Under the pieces are notes generated by a model. That model was not told where the DNA came from, did not search any database, and saw only the letters and a list, made by a program, of their open reading frames with translations. DNA of 64,000 bases from Brachybacterium vulturis (GTDB taxonomy: Bacteria; Actinomycetota; Actinomycetes; Actinomycetales; Dermabacteraceae): positions 186,001 through 250,000 of the forward strand of contig NZ_CP023563.1 in the NCBI RefSeq assembly GCF_002407185.1. Direction: 5' to 3'. A program made the translations under genes and the position numbers. This document shows positions 28,757-35,329 of this stretch, one piece after another (the stretch's first letter is position 1; each line of letters starts with the position of its first letter).

Positions 28757-29617
28757 TCACTCGCGCTTGGCCGGGCGGACCACCGCGACGTTCCCCGTGG
28801 CGTGCAGGACGACTGCGTGCGCGGTCGACCCGAAGGCGCCCCGGCTCAGCCCGCGATGCCCGATCACCAACATGCGCGCCCCGGTGGCCGCGCTCAGCAT
28901 CCCCTCGGCGACCGTGCGGTCCTCGATCATCCGCGCCTGGACCTCGAGCCCCTCGTGCCGGGCGGCCGCCCGGGCGGCCCCCTCCTCGAGCACCCCCCGC
29001 GAACGGCTCCCGGCGCGCCACACCTCGGCGCCGCCCGACGAGGGCGCATGCGACCCCGACCGCACATGGATCACGCGCAGCACGGCGGCCCAGGCCGCTG
29101 CGAGATCAGCCGCCTCGTCGACCGCCTCGCCGGCAGCCTCGGAGCCGTCGTACGCAGCGAGCACCGGGCCCGCCCGGTGCTGATCGGAGCGGATCACGGC
29201 CACCGGACAGCCCGCGTCGTGGAGGATCCCGCGGCTGACGGACCCCAGCAGCGTCCCCATCACGGCACCGAGGCCGCGCGTGCCGACGACCAGCAGGTCG
29301 GTGCGCTCGGAGATCTCCTCGAGCGCCTCCCGCGGCATCCCCTGGAGCAGCTCCGCCGTGACCGTCACCTCGGGGAACCGCAGGGCGATGCGCTCGGCGG
29401 CATCATCGAGGAGCCTCATGGCCTGATTGCGCGGCCCTGTCGGGTCGAGCACCGGGATCCCCGTCACGCCCTGTCCGAGCAGGGGCCAGGTCCAGGCGTG
29501 GACGAGGTGCAGCCCGGACTGCGTGCTCCGGGCGAGATCCGCGGCCCAGTGGACGGCCGCCATCGATGCGGTGGTGTCGTCGTAACCCACCACGATGTCC
29601 TGACCGGTGAATCCCAT
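28757..29617 (-). CDS. Universal stress protein, two tandem Usp domains
   Basis: A 286-residue protein of two UspA domains (about 1-145 and 150-286). ATP-binding motifs are DIVVGYDDTTAS and VVGTRGLGAVMGTLLGSVSRGI in the first domain, and VLAAYDGSEAAG and VIGHRGLSRGAFGSTAHAV in the second. Such proteins bind nucleotides and accumulate under stress or dormancy in actinobacteria. The ATG at 29617 has GGGAGG 8 nt upstream; a GTG three codons earlier is less likely. Nothing around it suggests a specific pathway. Confidence 0.92.
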   Translation of the reverse strand: MGFTGQDIVVGYDDTTASMAAVHWAADLARSTQSGLHLVHAWTWPLLGQGVTGIPVLDPTGPRNQAMRLLDDAAERIALRFPEVTVTAELLQGMPREALEEISERTDLLVVGTRGLGAVMGTLLGSVSRGILHDAGCPVAVIRSDQHRAGPVLAAYDGSEAAGEAVDEAADLAAAWAAVLRVIHVRSGSHAPSSGGAEVWRAGSRSRGVLEEGAARAAARHEGLEVQARMIEDRTVAEGMLSAATGARMLVIGHRGLSRGAFGSTAHAVVLHATGNVAVVRPAKRE

Positions 29618-29671
29618 GGTGCACACCTCCCCGTGAGGCCGGGAACGGATCCTCAGGATACGCCGCCGTGC

Positions 29672-30757
29672 TCACGGCCGGGGAGGACCTGTGCGGGGGC
29701 CCGTGCGCGCCATGGCGCGGTCGGAGCCGGGCTCGTCGTCCTCCCGCTCGGTCCCGTCGTCCTCGTCGTCCTCGTCGTCCTCGCACTCGTTCTCCCACTT
29801 CCACCGCAGCCCGAGCGTCCCGGGCCCGAAACGGGCCTCGCTGACCTGGAGCCGTTCGCGACGGTCCAGGCGCACGCTGGAGGTGGTCTCACCGGATTCC
29901 GTGCGCTGGTATCGCACGCAGTCCACCGGCCTCCGGTCGCCGCGGAACTCGACCTCGATCAGCGCGTCGTTGGCCCGCCGCGGGAGGCTGTACACGACCG
30001 CCGTCATGTCCGTGGCCCGGGCGCTCAGCTCGACCCGGTAGTCGAAGGCCGCGACCTGGCCGGCATCGAGGTGGCCGTCCACCAGCAGCTCGACGCCGTA
30101 GACCCGGTGCTCGGGCCAGCTCACTCGGCGCCCGATCGAGCACCCCTGGACCGGGATGAAGTGCGGCGCGATGTTCGGCTCCGCCGGCTCCAGGACGTAC
30201 ACCGCCGGCAGACGGCACACCCCGGACTCGAGGGCCCGCACGATCAGGCCGAAGTCGAAGCTCTGGACATCCTGCGACGAGTCGATGGTCGCGTGCTGAT
30301 GGAACACCCGTTCATGGGCGTACTGCTGCGCGGAGGTGAACCCCAGCTCCCGGAGCGCGTCGTTGAACACCTCCTTGCTGGAGCGGTGGCCGAGGAAGGA
30401 CGTGGTCCGCACGGACCGTCCCCGCAGTCGTGGCGCCCCCACCAGGTCCGCGAGCGACTCGGGAGCCCGCCCCAGCAGCTCCTCGAGCGCCGCCACCACA
30501 CCGAGTGACTGCTCCCCGCCGGGCAGGCTCCGGCCCGACTGCCAGTTGCTCAGCGTGGCGACGCTGACCGGTCGGTGGCGCGCCCGCAAACGGTGGGAGA
30601 TCGCGGTCAGGGTCAGGCCGCTCTGCTCGATGGCTCTGCGCAGCTCAACTGCGAATCTCTCGTCATCACCTGCTGCCATCGCCGCGGCGCTCCCCTTCCC
30701 GGTCACTGGCCGTCGCCCGGCCCGGCGGTGTCCGCCGCCGTTCACCATTTCTGACAT
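29672..30757 (-). CDS. Helix-turn-helix transcriptional regulator with acidic C-terminus
   Basis: A 361-residue protein. About residues 33-95 form an XRE-type HTH (FAVELRRAIEQSGLTLTAIS, then VSVATLSNWQSGRSLPGGEQ). About residues 115-320 are a beta-rich domain not recognised (FNDALRELGFTSAQQYAHER; GRRVSWPEHRVYGVELLVDG), perhaps a sensor. The tail contains an acidic run, ENECEDDEDDEDDGTERE. CATTTC-N12-GAAATG (30746-30751/30764-30769) spans the start codons and could mediate autorepression. An ATG three codons later, or the Met at residue 27, are alternative starts. The divergent oligopeptidase unit is the likely target. Confidence 0.78.
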   Translation of the reverse strand: MSEMVNGGGHRRAGRRPVTGKGSAAAMAAGDDERFAVELRRAIEQSGLTLTAISHRLRARHRPVSVATLSNWQSGRSLPGGEQSLGVVAALEELLGRAPESLADLVGAPRLRGRSVRTTSFLGHRSSKEVFNDALRELGFTSAQQYAHERVFHQHATIDSSQDVQSFDFGLIVRALESGVCRLPAVYVLEPAEPNIAPHFIPVQGCSIGRRVSWPEHRVYGVELLVDGHLDAGQVAAFDYRVELSARATDMTAVVYSLPRRANDALIEVEFRGDRRPVDCVRYQRTESGETTSSVRLDRRERLQVSEARFGPGTLGLRWKWENECEDDEDDEDDGTEREDDEPGSDRAMARTGPRTGPPRP

Positions 30758-30840
30758 ACCTCTGAAATGCCCACAGTAGCCTGTATGACAGACCTCACAT
30801 GGTGGTCCTGAGAAGTACGTGACAAGGAGGCTAGATCGAT

Positions 30841-30957
30841 GTGAACTCCGGAGGACAGTGCCCTCCGGCGCGACGTGCCGTACTGCCCCGCCCTGACCGC
30901 CAGGGCTCCTTCAGTCCCCAGGCACCATCCCTCAGTCCCCAGGCACCATCTCGATGA
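30841..30957 (+). CDS. Candidate 38-residue small ORF / leader peptide
   Basis: GTG at 30841 is preceded by AAGGAGG (30824-30830), the strongest Shine-Dalgarno in this region, with 10-nt spacing. The 38-codon frame (VNSGGQCPPARRAVLPRPDR at its start) ends at TGA 30955-30957. Its second half is a 7-codon tandem repeat, SPQAPSL then SPQAPSR. ATG at 30839 overlaps but is followed at once by TGA, a start-stop. It lies 128 bp upstream of the oligopeptidase operon and divergent from the HTH regulator. It could be a regulatory leader. It resembles no known protein. Confidence 0.4.
   Translation: MNSGGQCPPARRAVLPRPDRQGSFSPQAPSLSPQAPSR
30911..30952. repeat. 21-bp tandem repeat in small ORF
   Basis: Two adjacent 21-bp units beginning TCAGTCCCCAGGCACCATC (30911-30931 and 30932-30952) that differ at one base. 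The unit is seven codons, in frame with the small ORF at 30841. Confidence 0.85.
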
Positions 30958-31085
30958 GAACTGCTGCACCTCGGTCGGCAACGACGCCGGTCACGCCGGT
31001 GCCTCAGCTCACTGCGGACGTGCACCGGTCCCGATCGATGCTCGCCGTACCACGGATGGTTCTCCCCGACAGGAAAGCTGCACCC

Positions 31086-33221
31086 ATGTCTCAGCACACA
31101 GTCTCCTCGACGAGCTCGGCACGTCGTGGCAGCGAGATCTCGCGCGACCTCATCCCACGCCCTGCCCCGCGCCCCGTCGAGCGGGCTCTGTTCGGCGACG
31201 CCGTCCCGATCCCGTACCGCTGGCTGCGTGCCGCCGACTCCCCTGACGTCGCCCGGCACTTCGCCGCGGAGAACGCGCATACCGACGCGCGGACCGCGCA
31301 TCTCGCCTCCCTGCGCGAGGAGCTGTGCGCCCTGGTCGACGACCCCGTCTCGCCGCTCGAGCTGTCCGCCCCCGTCCTGCTCGACGGATGGTGGTACATC
31401 GACCGTTTCGCTCCCGACGGCACGGCCACGCTGTCCCGGGTCCGCGACCGGGAGGGGCTGCGGAGCCCCTCCGGGATCCCCCGGATCGAGCCCGAGCGGC
31501 TCCTCGACGGCGAGGAGATCCTGGTGGCCGACTGCCTGTCGATGATCGGCTTCGCCGTCTCCTCCGACCACAGACTGCTCGCCCGCGCCGAGGCGGCGTT
31601 CGGCGGATGCCGACTGATCATCACCGAGGCCGCCACCGGCCAGGTCGTCGACAGCGCCGTCGGCGGGGCCGGACCCGATATCGTCTTCTCCGCCGACTCG
31701 CGCTCCCTGCTGCACACCCGGGTGGACGATCTCGGCCGTCGGCACCAGGTCCGCAGCCACCGCCTGGGCACCTCGGCGGAGGAGGACATCCTCCTGCTCG
31801 AGGAGTCCGACCACTGGGCAGAGCTCGAGCTCTCCCGCTCCCGGGACGGCTCCGCACTGATGATCCGCTCCGTCTCTCCCCAGGGCAGCGAGGTGTGGCT
31901 CTGCGATCTCCGCGCCGCCGAAGCGCCTCCGCGGCCGGTGACCGGCCGGCTCACGGATGCGCGACCCGCGCGCCTGGAGCATGCCGGGGACCGGCTGCTG
32001 GTGATCCACGAGGACCGCGAGACCCAGCGGACCGTGCTCAGCGAGATCGGTCTGGACACGACCGGCGGCCTGCCGGGCATGTCCGCACTGCTGAGCGCCG
32101 AGGACGACGAGCACTTCGAGTCCGTGGAGGCCTTCGCCGATGTCATCGCCCTCCAGCTGCGCGGCGGCGGCGTCCCGCGGCTGCGGCTCATCCCGCGCCG
32201 GGCCGACGGCTCCCTCGACCTGCAGGCGGCGCACACCGTGGGTCGTGGCGGGACGCTGGACTCGGTGCGCCTCGAGCCCGTCCCGGCCTGGGGCACCCGA
32301 CGGATCCGCTACCGCCTGGACAGCTTCCTCACCTCCGGCATGCTCCTGGAGCACGACCTGGACACCGGGGAGAGCATCGAGCTCCTGCGAGAGGACGCCG
32401 CCGACTTCGATCCCGCGCAGTACGTGGAGCGTCGTCTGTGGGCGACCTCGGCCGACGGCACGCGGGTGCCGATCTCGCTGCTCGCCCGGCGGGACACGCC
32501 GCGCGACGGCACCGCACCCGCACTGCTCTACGGCCACGGCGCCTTCGGCATCTCCACCGAGCCGAAGCTGCGCCCCGAGGTCCGAGCGGTCGTGGACCGC
32601 GGGGTCGTGCTCGCCATCGCGCACGTGCGCGGCGGCGGCGAGATGGGCCCGCAGTGGCATCAGCAGGGCCGGGGTCCGCGCAAGCAGAACTCCTTCGCCG
32701 ATCTCCTGGCCTGCGCCGACCATCTCGTGGACACCGGTTGGGTCGCAGCGGACAGGATCGGCGCCGTCGGCGACGGCGCCGGAGCGCTGCTGGTCGCGGG
32801 AGCGGCCAACCTCGCCCCGGAGCGGTTCCGGGCGATCCTCGCCGGGGGTCCGCTGGTGGATCCCCTGGAGACCCTCCTGGACCCGAACGTGATGCTCACC
32901 CTCGAGGAATGGGCCGAGTGGGGCGATCCCGCGGCCGATGAGGCGACCTACCGCTCTCAGCGCGGGTACAGCCCGGCGGAGAACATCCGGGAGACCGAGT
33001 ACCCGGCAGTCTTCGCCTGGACGGCGCTCGACGGCATGGACGTGCCCCCGGCCTGCGCGGCGATCTGGGTCGCGCAGCTGCGGGCGCGGGTCACCTCGGA
33101 CCCGTCCGAGCGCCCGATCCTGCTGCGCGCGACCCCCACCCTGGGATCCGCCGGCGACCCCCGGGTCGAGGGAGTGGCCTGGCTCCTCGAGCAGCTGGGC
33201 GCGGTTACCCTCGGGGAATGA
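31086..33221 (+). CDS. S9A prolyl oligopeptidase-family protein lacking the catalytic triad
   Basis: A 711-residue two-domain protein: a beta-propeller (about 70-430) and an alpha/beta-hydrolase domain (about 440-711). It aligns end to end with the next gene. The conserved strand-turn DRGVVLAIAHVRGGGEMG and the following KQNSFADLL region are kept. The nucleophile motif GRSAGG has become GDGAGA (Gly564 in place of Ser). The LNDTRV aspartate is Gly in LDGMDV, and the AGHGG histidine is Ser in TLGSAGD. All three triad residues are absent, so hydrolysis is not expected. The frame is intact and overlaps the active paralogue by 4 bp. A role as a partner or ligand-binding pseudoenzyme is inferred. 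ATG at 31086 has AGGAAAG upstream. Confidence 0.88.
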   Translation: MSQHTVSSTSSARRGSEISRDLIPRPAPRPVERALFGDAVPIPYRWLRAADSPDVARHFAAENAHTDARTAHLASLREELCALVDDPVSPLELSAPVLLDGWWYIDRFAPDGTATLSRVRDREGLRSPSGIPRIEPERLLDGEEILVADCLSMIGFAVSSDHRLLARAEAAFGGCRLIITEAATGQVVDSAVGGAGPDIVFSADSRSLLHTRVDDLGRRHQVRSHRLGTSAEEDILLLEESDHWAELELSRSRDGSALMIRSVSPQGSEVWLCDLRAAEAPPRPVTGRLTDARPARLEHAGDRLLVIHEDRETQRTVLSEIGLDTTGGLPGMSALLSAEDDEHFESVEAFADVIALQLRGGGVPRLRLIPRRADGSLDLQAAHTVGRGGTLDSVRLEPVPAWGTRRIRYRLDSFLTSGMLLEHDLDTGESIELLREDAADFDPAQYVERRLWATSADGTRVPISLLARRDTPRDGTAPALLYGHGAFGISTEPKLRPEVRAVVDRGVVLAIAHVRGGGEMGPQWHQQGRGPRKQNSFADLLACADHLVDTGWVAADRIGAVGDGAGALLVAGAANLAPERFRAILAGGPLVDPLETLLDPNVMLTLEEWAEWGDPAADEATYRSQRGYSPAENIRETEYPAVFAWTALDGMDVPPACAAIWVAQLRARVTSDPSERPILLRATPTLGSAGDPRVEGVAWLLEQLGAVTLGE

Positions 33222-35329
33222 CCGCCGAGCTCCCTGCTGCCCCGACCCCTGCGCACCGCCCCACCGAGAGGACCTTCCACGGTGACACCGTGGTCGATCC
33301 GTTCGAGTGGATGCGGGACAAGACCGACCCCGAGGTGATCGCCCATCTCGAGGCGGAGAACGCCTACTCCGATGCCCGCACCGCACACCTCGAGCAGCTC
33401 CGGGCCACCCTGGTCCGGGAGTTCGTCGGGCACACCCAGGAGACCGACCTCAGCGTGCCGGTGCGCCGCGACCACTGGTGGTACATCACCCGCACCACCG
33501 CCGGGGACGACTACCCGAAGTTCACCCGCGTCGCCGACACCGGCACGATGCCGCAGGTCGAGCCGGGCGTGATGCTCGAGGGCGAGCAGGTGCTGCTGGA
33601 CGCCCAGGCCGAGGCCGCGGGCGCCGAGTTCTACTCCCTCGGCGGGCTCGCCCCCTCCCCCGACCACACCCTGTTCGCCTCCGCCGTGGACACCGCGGGC
33701 GATGAGCGCTTCACCCTCCGCATCATGGACATCGCCTCCGGGACGGTCCTCGACGAGGCGGTCACCGGCGCCGGCTACGGTCTCGCCTTCTCCACCGACC
33801 AGCAGTGGCTGTTCTACGCCCGGGTCGACGACGCCTGGCGCCAGCACCAGATCTGGCGGCACCGCATCGGGGGTCCGGCCGGCGAGGACGTGCTGGTCAT
33901 CGAGGAGCCCGACGAGCGGTTCATGATCGGCTTCGACCGCTCCCGCGATGGCTCGACCCTGATGATCCAGGCGGGCTCCACCTCCACCACCGAGGCCTGG
34001 CTGCTGGACCTGTCCGATCCCACATCGGCCCCGGTGCCCGCGGGCGGCCGCCGGGACGGTGTGGACTACGGCGTCGAGCACGGCGGGGACCGGCTGCTGA
34101 TCGTGCACAACGACGGCCATCGCGGCTTCGCGCTCGCGCAGGCGCCGCTGGAGGCACCGGAGCGCTGGGAGGAGCTGCTGGCCCCGGCCGAGGGCGAGCG
34201 GCTGCTCGCGGTCGAGGCGTTCGCGGGCTTCGTCGCGCTCGAGCTGCGCAGCGGCGGCCTGGCGAGCGTGCGGCTGATCCCGCGGGCGGCCGACGGCTCG
34301 CTGCGCATCGAGCAGGCCTGCGACATCAGCCACGGCGGCGAGCTGGACACCGTCGAGATCGACGCCAACCCGAACTGGGACCAGACCACGGTGCGCTACC
34401 AGCTCACCAGCATGCTCACCCCGTCCACCGTCGCCGAGCGGGAGGTCGCCTCCGGGGCCACCGAGATCCTGCGCGTCACGCCGGTGCCGAACTTCGACCC
34501 GGAGCTGTACGTGGAGCGGCGCGAATGGGCGAGGGCCGAGGACGGCACCGCGATCCCGCTGAGCGTGGTGGCGCGCCGCGACCTCACGGCCGACGGCACC
34601 GCACCGGGCTACCTGTACGGCTACGGCTCCTACGAGATGTCGATCGACCCCTCGTTCGTCCCCACCCGGCTGTCGCTGCTGGACCGCGGCGTGGTGATCG
34701 CGATCGCGCACGTGCGCGGCGGCGGGGAGATGGGCCGCGACTGGTACGAGCACGGCAAGCTGCTGGAGAAGAAGAACTCCTTCAGCGACTTCGTGGCCGC
34801 CGCCGCCCACCTGACGGACTCCGGCCTGGTGGCCGCGGAGCGGCTGGGCGCCGAGGGCCGCAGCGCGGGCGGGCTGCTGATGGGCGGCATCGCGAACCTC
34901 GCCCCCGAGCGGTTCCGGGCGATCATCGCCGGGGTGCCCTTCGTCGACGCGCTGACCACGATCCTGGACCCGAGCCTGCCGCTGACCGTGGGTGAGTGGG
35001 AGGAGTGGGGCGATCCGCTGCACGATCCGGCGGTGTACGAGTACATGCGCGGATACACGCCCTACGAGAGCATCACGGCGGTCCAGTACCCGGCGATCTT
35101 CGCCTCCACCTCGCTGAACGACACCCGCGTGTTCTTCAACGAGCCGGCCAAGTGGGTCGCCCGCCTGCGCGAGACCGTCACCTCCGATCAGGCGGAGCGG
35201 CCGATCCTGTTCCGCTGCGAGATGGTCGCCGGGCACGGCGGCCGCTCGGGCCGCTACCGCAAGTGGGAGCAGCGTGCGGACGAGCTCGCCTGGCTGCTGG
35301 ACCAGCTCGGGGCGACCGAGCTGCTCTGA
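33218..35329 (+). CDS. ptrB: Oligopeptidase B-like serine peptidase (S9A)
   Basis: A 703-residue prolyl-oligopeptidase-family enzyme of oligopeptidase B size that cleaves short peptides, probably after basic residues. The triad is complete: Ser549 (GRSAGGLLMGG), Asp635 (SLNDTRVFF) and His673 (VAGHGGRSGRY). The propeller occupies about residues 70-410. No signal peptide is present, so it should be cytoplasmic. Its start overlaps the stop of the triad-dead paralogue (ATGA), so the two are probably made together. A strong hairpin follows 48 bp downstream. Confidence 0.93.
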   Translation: MTAELPAAPTPAHRPTERTFHGDTVVDPFEWMRDKTDPEVIAHLEAENAYSDARTAHLEQLRATLVREFVGHTQETDLSVPVRRDHWWYITRTTAGDDYPKFTRVADTGTMPQVEPGVMLEGEQVLLDAQAEAAGAEFYSLGGLAPSPDHTLFASAVDTAGDERFTLRIMDIASGTVLDEAVTGAGYGLAFSTDQQWLFYARVDDAWRQHQIWRHRIGGPAGEDVLVIEEPDERFMIGFDRSRDGSTLMIQAGSTSTTEAWLLDLSDPTSAPVPAGGRRDGVDYGVEHGGDRLLIVHNDGHRGFALAQAPLEAPERWEELLAPAEGERLLAVEAFAGFVALELRSGGLASVRLIPRAADGSLRIEQACDISHGGELDTVEIDANPNWDQTTVRYQLTSMLTPSTVAEREVASGATEILRVTPVPNFDPELYVERREWARAEDGTAIPLSVVARRDLTADGTAPGYLYGYGSYEMSIDPSFVPTRLSLLDRGVVIAIAHVRGGGEMGRDWYEHGKLLEKKNSFSDFVAAAAHLTDSGLVAAERLGAEGRSAGGLLMGGIANLAPERFRAIIAGVPFVDALTTILDPSLPLTVGEWEEWGDPLHDPAVYEYMRGYTPYESITAVQYPAIFASTSLNDTRVFFNEPAKWVARLRETVTSDQAERPILFRCEMVAGHGGRSGRYRKWEQRADELAWLLDQLGATELL

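Follow-up and report, generated by a model that had tools for sequence, protein, structure and literature searches.

The 64,000-nucleotide stretch of the Brachybacterium vulturis genome analyzed here (the window; contig NZ_CP023563.1, positions 186,001 to 250,000, assembly GCF_002407185.1) contains two full-length oligopeptidase B (OpB) paralogs arranged head to tail on the + strand. Gene 2 (33218..35329, 703 aa) has an intact catalytic triad (S549, D635, H673), whereas gene 1 (31086..33221, 711 aa) is a catalytically dead OpB paralog (pseudo-OpB). Gene 1 is a conserved pseudoenzyme rather than a case of recent decay, because the triad is lost throughout its lineage, the dead copies form a single clade on a long stem, and its ratio of nonsynonymous to synonymous substitution rates (dN/dS) is well below 1. 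Its protein may be an old, separately expressed, non-catalytic paralog with a peptide-binding or regulatory role, a reading that we give an even chance of being correct.

Both proteins match PF02897 and PF00326 above cut-off, contain the propeller and S9 hydrolase domains, and are identical at 315 of 705 aligned columns (45%; 543 bits in BLASTP). The best Protein Data Bank matches of both are OpB chains from Serratia and Trypanosoma. Judged from sequence, gene 1 and gene 2 are S9A (OpB) paralogs, which agrees with the original prediction of two full-length S9 paralogs, the first of them intact. The start of gene 1 was placed at 31086 because closer relatives share the N-terminus M(S/T)QHT and a Shine-Dalgarno sequence is present (AGGAAAG, 31071..31077, + strand); a longer in-frame start at 30954 was rejected as not conserved.

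Gene 2 resembles the characterized OpB enzymes (MEROPS S9A; SpOpB, 7ywp; TbOpB, 4bp8) in its propeller, its hydrolase domain and the tabulated catalytic elements, and carries the E-R latch pair of the TbOpB-like group. Gene 1 shares this architecture but lacks Ser, Asp and His of the triad as well as the latch pair, has a shortened H-loop, and has His in place of the oxyanion Tyr. Active-site residues were mapped by hand via the alignment to SpOpB, with the roles given for SpOpB and TbOpB in PMC9917282. Aligned to gene 2, the nucleophile Ser position of gene 1 is Gly564 (codon 32775..32777, this and the following codons on the + strand), the catalytic Asp position is Gly650 (33033..33035), and the catalytic His position is Ser688 (33147..33149), shortly followed by an 8-residue gap relative to gene 2. 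This alignment confirmed the predicted Gly/Gly/Ser of gene 1 against Ser549/Asp635/His673 of gene 2. The oxyanion-hole Tyr (SpOpB Y452) is replaced by His484 (32535..32537); in the latch (SB1), E163 is deleted and R637 is replaced by Asp. The S1 Glu (SpOpB E576) is retained as Glu608 (32907..32909).

These losses are not peculiar to B. vulturis. Forty-seven genomes of the family were searched whole, 38 of them Brachybacterium, and 35 Brachybacterium loci, the window included, were read. Of these 35 loci, 17 have an intact dead gene, one has a truncated and one a frame-broken copy, and 16 have none. All 17 of the intact genomic copies have Gly at the Ser position and have the latch acid E163 deleted, and at the Asp position 16 have Gly and one has His; the oxyanion Tyr is missing from 16 (G015 retains it), the loop after the catalytic His is shortened in those copies shown, and the S1 Glu is present in all 17. 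The His position varies (D in 6, G in 5, S in 3, T in 2 and A in 1); the proposed G/G/S signature is this species' version and cannot be generalized. A larger site table holds 65 dead rows (the genomic copies and, after removal of P0002 and the fragments P0016, P0031 and P0058, the database proteins P0001-P0058 longer than 650 aa, with identical rows merged); it still includes near-duplicates, and the 17-genome counts are cleaner. In this table, the Ser position is Gly in 63 rows, the Asp position is Gly in 59, the His position is never His, latch Arg637 is never Arg (0/65), five rows (G015 among them) still have the oxyanion Tyr that the other 60 have lost, and the S1 Glu is retained in 63. 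No full triad was found in the dead-clade proteins among the 120 matches listed of 226, nor in the 17 genomic copies. Among the matches listed, the nearest protein with a species name came from B. vulturis (92%). All twelve tabulated OpB active-site positions are retained in 40/40 active genes.

OpB matches were found in 45 of the 47 family genomes. The nine genomes of other genera have one match apiece, and the loci of G016, G027 and G031 (Brachybacterium) and of G039, G040 and G044 lie outside those read; at 1e-60, neither G016 nor G031 gave a match, and the match in G027 was partial. In a class-wide sample, 170 of 394 genomes had OpB matches and, among the matches listed, a neighboring pair occurred only in the window's own genome; two candidates were scored per genome, and the second matches of G280, G320, G327 and G410 are outside that list. 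The order and strand of the dead and active genes are kept in 17/17 intact pairs, which answers the gene-order check called for by the original prediction. The two genes are adjacent and co-directional in 16 of these pairs and 3.6 kb apart in the remaining one (G015), and the active gene is present and open in all 17 genomes. Between the two genes of G015 (L053, 7868-11505) lie open reading frames (ORFs) that, by reading, resemble a TetR-type regulator, an ABC exporter and a MerR-type regulator.

The truncated gene, of which the last ~200 codons are left, is that of B. massiliense (G014). In this genome, which has no match to the divergent regulator family described below, the remnant abuts the antisense of a universal-stress gene (L052, 9452-11164). 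In G028, the dead and active genes are both frame-broken (L064, 6392-10714) in a one-contig assembly that is 85% complete, and the breaks are probably assembly or sequencing errors; this genome, in which the divergent regulator gene is split as well, was excluded from trees, dN/dS and promoter counts. B. aquaticum (G002) lacks the dead gene, although its active gene groups with those of the bearers. The original prediction had held that close relatives with a full triad, or with frameshifts in the first gene, would point to recent decay: no full triad was found in a relative, and the first gene is broken in two of the 35 loci (truncated in G014, frame-broken together with gene 2 in G028) and absent in 16.

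In a tree of 17 genomic and 15 chosen database dead copies, 40 active copies and 8 outgroup proteins, the dead copies form one clade (Shimodaira-Hasegawa-like approximate likelihood ratio test, 100) on a stem of 0.9 changes per column. In 11 species pairs hand-picked from the 17 species, dN/dS (NG86) is 0.25-0.50 for the dead gene, with upper 95% bootstrap bounds of 0.33-0.63, and 0.16-0.31 for the active gene; these values are approximate because third positions are very GC-rich. The dead gene is under purifying selection and does not evolve neutrally. Recent decay is therefore rejected, given the lack of a triad in the orthologs, the age of the clade and the purifying selection; the dN/dS comparison suggested at the outset came out in favor of selection on gene 1, as had been proposed.

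A duplication inside the genus, rather than before Brachybacterium, is favored by the trees. A single clade of all 34 Brachybacterium active genes fits as well as the free tree (approximately unbiased test, p-AU 0.51), and a tree in which the dead genes and the 19 active genes of the bearer clade are united beats the free search by 15.7 log units (p-AU 0.73); each placement was compared with the free tree and not head to head. The duplication, most simply a tandem one, would have occurred at the root of a single Brachybacterium clade. None of the dead lineages sampled has the Ser, the His, the closed-state latch or a complete His-loop, so these losses probably date to the stem. In the alignment, most dead lineages also lack the Asp and the oxyanion Tyr. 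At the acid position, three of the 65 rows retain Asp and two have His; of these five, P0047, P0049 and G037 together branch off first within the dead clade, and P0054, which is outside the tree, resembles them, so the catalytic Asp may have been the last to go.

The start of gene 2 and the stop of gene 1 overlap by 4 bp (ATGA, 33218..33221, + strand), from which the original prediction had deduced a translationally coupled pair in one operon. The overlap is real here, but it is found in only 9 of the 17 pairs; six others have gaps of 74-129 bp, one a gap of 16 bp, and one is separated by 3.6 kb. Gene 2 also has a promoter box of its own, the leaderless-type -10 box TACCCT (33206..33211, + strand), which lies within the last codons of gene 1. 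A TANNNT box is found 12-16 nt before the start in 39 of 40 active genes (first base 12-13 nt before it in 36 and 16 nt in 3): in 17/17 bearers, 16/17 Brachybacterium without an intact dead gene, and 6/6 members of other genera, the lone gene without it being that of G018. It occurs in 0/40 genes in each of four control spans further upstream and in 0/17 dead genes. A Shine-Dalgarno-like sequence precedes 15 of the 17 dead genes versus 1 of the 40 active genes; starts were set by script, and the dead genes of G021 and G024 received longer starts than their relatives suggest, which may explain a missing Shine-Dalgarno sequence. For the G006 active gene, the script found no in-frame start; its box stands before an out-of-frame ATG located 4 nt upstream, which points to a possible frameshift near the N-terminus (L044, 6426 and upstream).

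In the nine overlapping pairs, the codon giving the first T of the box is GTT, GCT or ACT in 9/9 cases, while T at third positions averages 5% in these genes; the nine species are related, and this count is not convertible to a p-value. The box is kept in two overlapping species with Ser replacing Thr at the next codon. Leaderless transcripts are common in Mycobacterium tuberculosis, whose principal -10 box is TANNNT, centered 7-12 bp upstream of the start site (PMC3898074). Because the box is conserved, also where the dead gene is absent, the active gene is most likely transcribed from an ancestral leaderless promoter of its own. The coupling argument is thus not supported, since the overlap is present in only 9/17 pairs and the active gene has its own promoter box. 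Coupling is disfavored as an explanation of the arrangement, although read-through from gene 1 may add to the expression of gene 2.

Gene 1, with its leadered start, is probably switched on separately from the active enzyme. A candidate -10 box, TAGCCT (30777..30782, + strand), would give a leader of ~300 nt; a TANNNT is present at this place in 10/10 aligned upstream regions (of the 17 bearers), and the promoter would probably stand back to back with that of the divergent gene. Shared k-mers upstream yielded no convincing operator. The presumed leader contains a 21-nt tandem duplication (TCCTTCAGTCCCCAGGCACCA, copies 95% identical) at window positions 30907-30948.

The overlap had also been taken to favor equal production of the two proteins and a heteromeric complex, an argument that its occurrence in 9/17 pairs, the separate promoter box and the different start types do not support. 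The likeliest alternative, although improbable, is that gene 1 encodes a structural or regulatory subunit of a heteromer with active OpB. In its favor are the constant order and strand of the intact pairs, the invariable presence of an open active gene in the bearers, and the stable dimer formed by Trypanosoma cruzi OpB (PMC3261901). It is weakened by the separate start signals and by the spacing, including the 3.6 kb of G015. Moreover, the active-gene branches of the two species that have lost gene 1 (0.14 in G002 and 0.10 in G014) fall within the range of the bearers, and the dead gene co-diverges no more with the active gene than with the divergent regulator gene. A complex of the gene 1 protein with its active twin is possible, but no finding argues specifically for one.

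This divergent gene (29672..30757, - strand) encodes a candidate regulator with an N-terminal helix-turn-helix (HTH) domain resembling HTH_31, the match being below the Pfam cut-off. In 16 of the 17 bearers it is the immediate upstream neighbor of the dead gene. Dead-gene distances correlate with those of the HTH gene at r 0.78 (partial 0.74) and with those of the active gene at r 0.66, in a mirror-tree comparison of 15 of the 17 species; G003 was dropped because its HTH frame is split and G015 because its HTH gene is on another contig. In G003, the HTH gene is apparently split in two frames (L041, 11268-12181), and the adjoining dead gene is intact. All 17 bearers, G028 and six genomes in which the dead gene is neither intact nor frame-broken have a match to the HTH family, 24 of the 47 genomes in total. 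A role of the HTH gene as a peptidase-specific regulator was rejected, since in the non-bearers G007, G033, G036 and G043 the relative is on a contig other than that of OpB or ~29 kb away from it (the neighboring ORFs of these relatives were judged by their first 60 residues). The association of the HTH gene with the dead gene is claimed as local synteny only.

The correlation with the HTH gene, together with the fast change of gene 1 (mean distance among the 15 species 0.64, versus 0.17 for the active gene), would suit a function that involves neither peptides nor the active twin, for example as a moonlighting scaffold or as a partner of the HTH regulator. We regard such a function as a still less probable explanation, for the S1 Glu and RGGGE segments are retained and six other genomes have HTH relatives without a dead OpB.

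Slow decay of a functionless duplicate is very improbable: the truncation in G014, the absence in G002 and the faster evolution of gene 1 relative to the active gene point that way, but the dead frames are open over 706-727 codons in 17 genomes (script start calls), the copies outside the window's genome are still 50-86% identical to gene 1, dN/dS is well under 1, and one residue, Gly, replaces Ser in 63/65 rows. Hydrolysis by some other mechanism is barely credible, because the alpha/beta-hydrolase domain is still present but the triad Ser and His are gone, the oxyanion Tyr is missing in most copies, and GxSxG occurs in the hydrolase part of only 1/65 dead rows (P0013, as GLSKG).

The gene 1 protein most likely works as a binder that does not cut. 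It retains the two-domain fold and the S1 Glu, which reads a basic P1 residue, and so could bind Lys- or Arg-containing peptides uncleaved. When its own promoter is on, the protein might act as a buffer for such peptides, present them, or compete for them with the active twin and so modulate it. A more specific and rather doubtful version is that a regulated S9 pseudopeptidase serves as a peptide receptor or inhibitor subunit and tunes a constitutive OpB, whose housekeeping promoter would sit in the last codons of the pseudoenzyme. Within the dead clade, conservation is highest in two 12-residue segments, AIAHVRGGGEMG, in the RGGGE loop, and LTLEEWAEWGDP, which holds the S1 Glu.

Several observations weigh against a peptide-binding or regulatory role. 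The conservation of the two segments is weak support because both are nearly invariant in the active enzyme, and their retention may be structural. Other pocket residues are altered in the dead rows (Phe575 to Leu in 58/65 and Glu595 to Ala in 48/65), and a comparison of conservation in the pocket with that in the domain gave p = 0.05 with a post hoc, hand-chosen set and is not relied on. Its truncation in B. massiliense and its absence from B. aquaticum show that the dead gene is dispensable. Lastly, the six of 47 genomes with the HTH family and no intact or frame-broken dead gene include four in which the HTH gene is away from OpB.

Beyond the HTH gene, the window encodes a universal stress protein (two Usp matches, 28757-29626) that adjoins it upstream, as it does in eight other bearers (G003, G004, G008, G010, G025, G026, G030 and G032). 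Downstream of the pair lies metQIN, which is common to most non-bearers.

Pairs or families with dead proteases are known elsewhere. DPP6 and DPP10 belong to the dipeptidyl peptidase group, S9B, a subfamily other than S9A. The Csp proteins CspC and CspA are subtilisin-like, with a fold unrelated to S9, and are linked to the active CspB. PqqF/PqqG and other M16 heterodimers consist of an active and a dead paralog made side by side, although a literature search on M16 pairs found no paper; unlike gene 1 and gene 2, they are metallopeptidases, and it is for M16 that a complex is known. Like gene 1, the animal proteins DPP6 and DPP10 are inactive S9 members kept as non-catalytic proteins, and they modulate Kv4 channels (PMC4873792 and PMC4350108). 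Clostridioides difficile has Csp proteins that, like gene 1, are bacterial pseudoproteases from a family of serine proteases; the inactive members act as signal sensors, with CspC and CspA forming a heterodimer (PMC12880746). Their role in spore germination distinguishes them from gene 1. No bacterial pseudoenzyme of the OpB or prolyl-oligopeptidase type was recognized in the literature searched, as judged by titles and the beginnings of abstracts. The claim that such a pair is not a known system thus holds for S9A in that literature and not for serine proteases at large: inactive S9 proteins of animals and bacterial serine-family pseudoproteases were already known.

To our knowledge, the cellular role of bacterial OpB is poorly defined. 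A dead copy under selection, together with two related species without an intact copy, offers a natural comparison for roles of OpB beyond cutting. The locus also illustrates that the promoter box of a neighbor can become part of the coding end of a gene, so that it is unsafe to infer coupling from overlap in high-GC actinobacteria.

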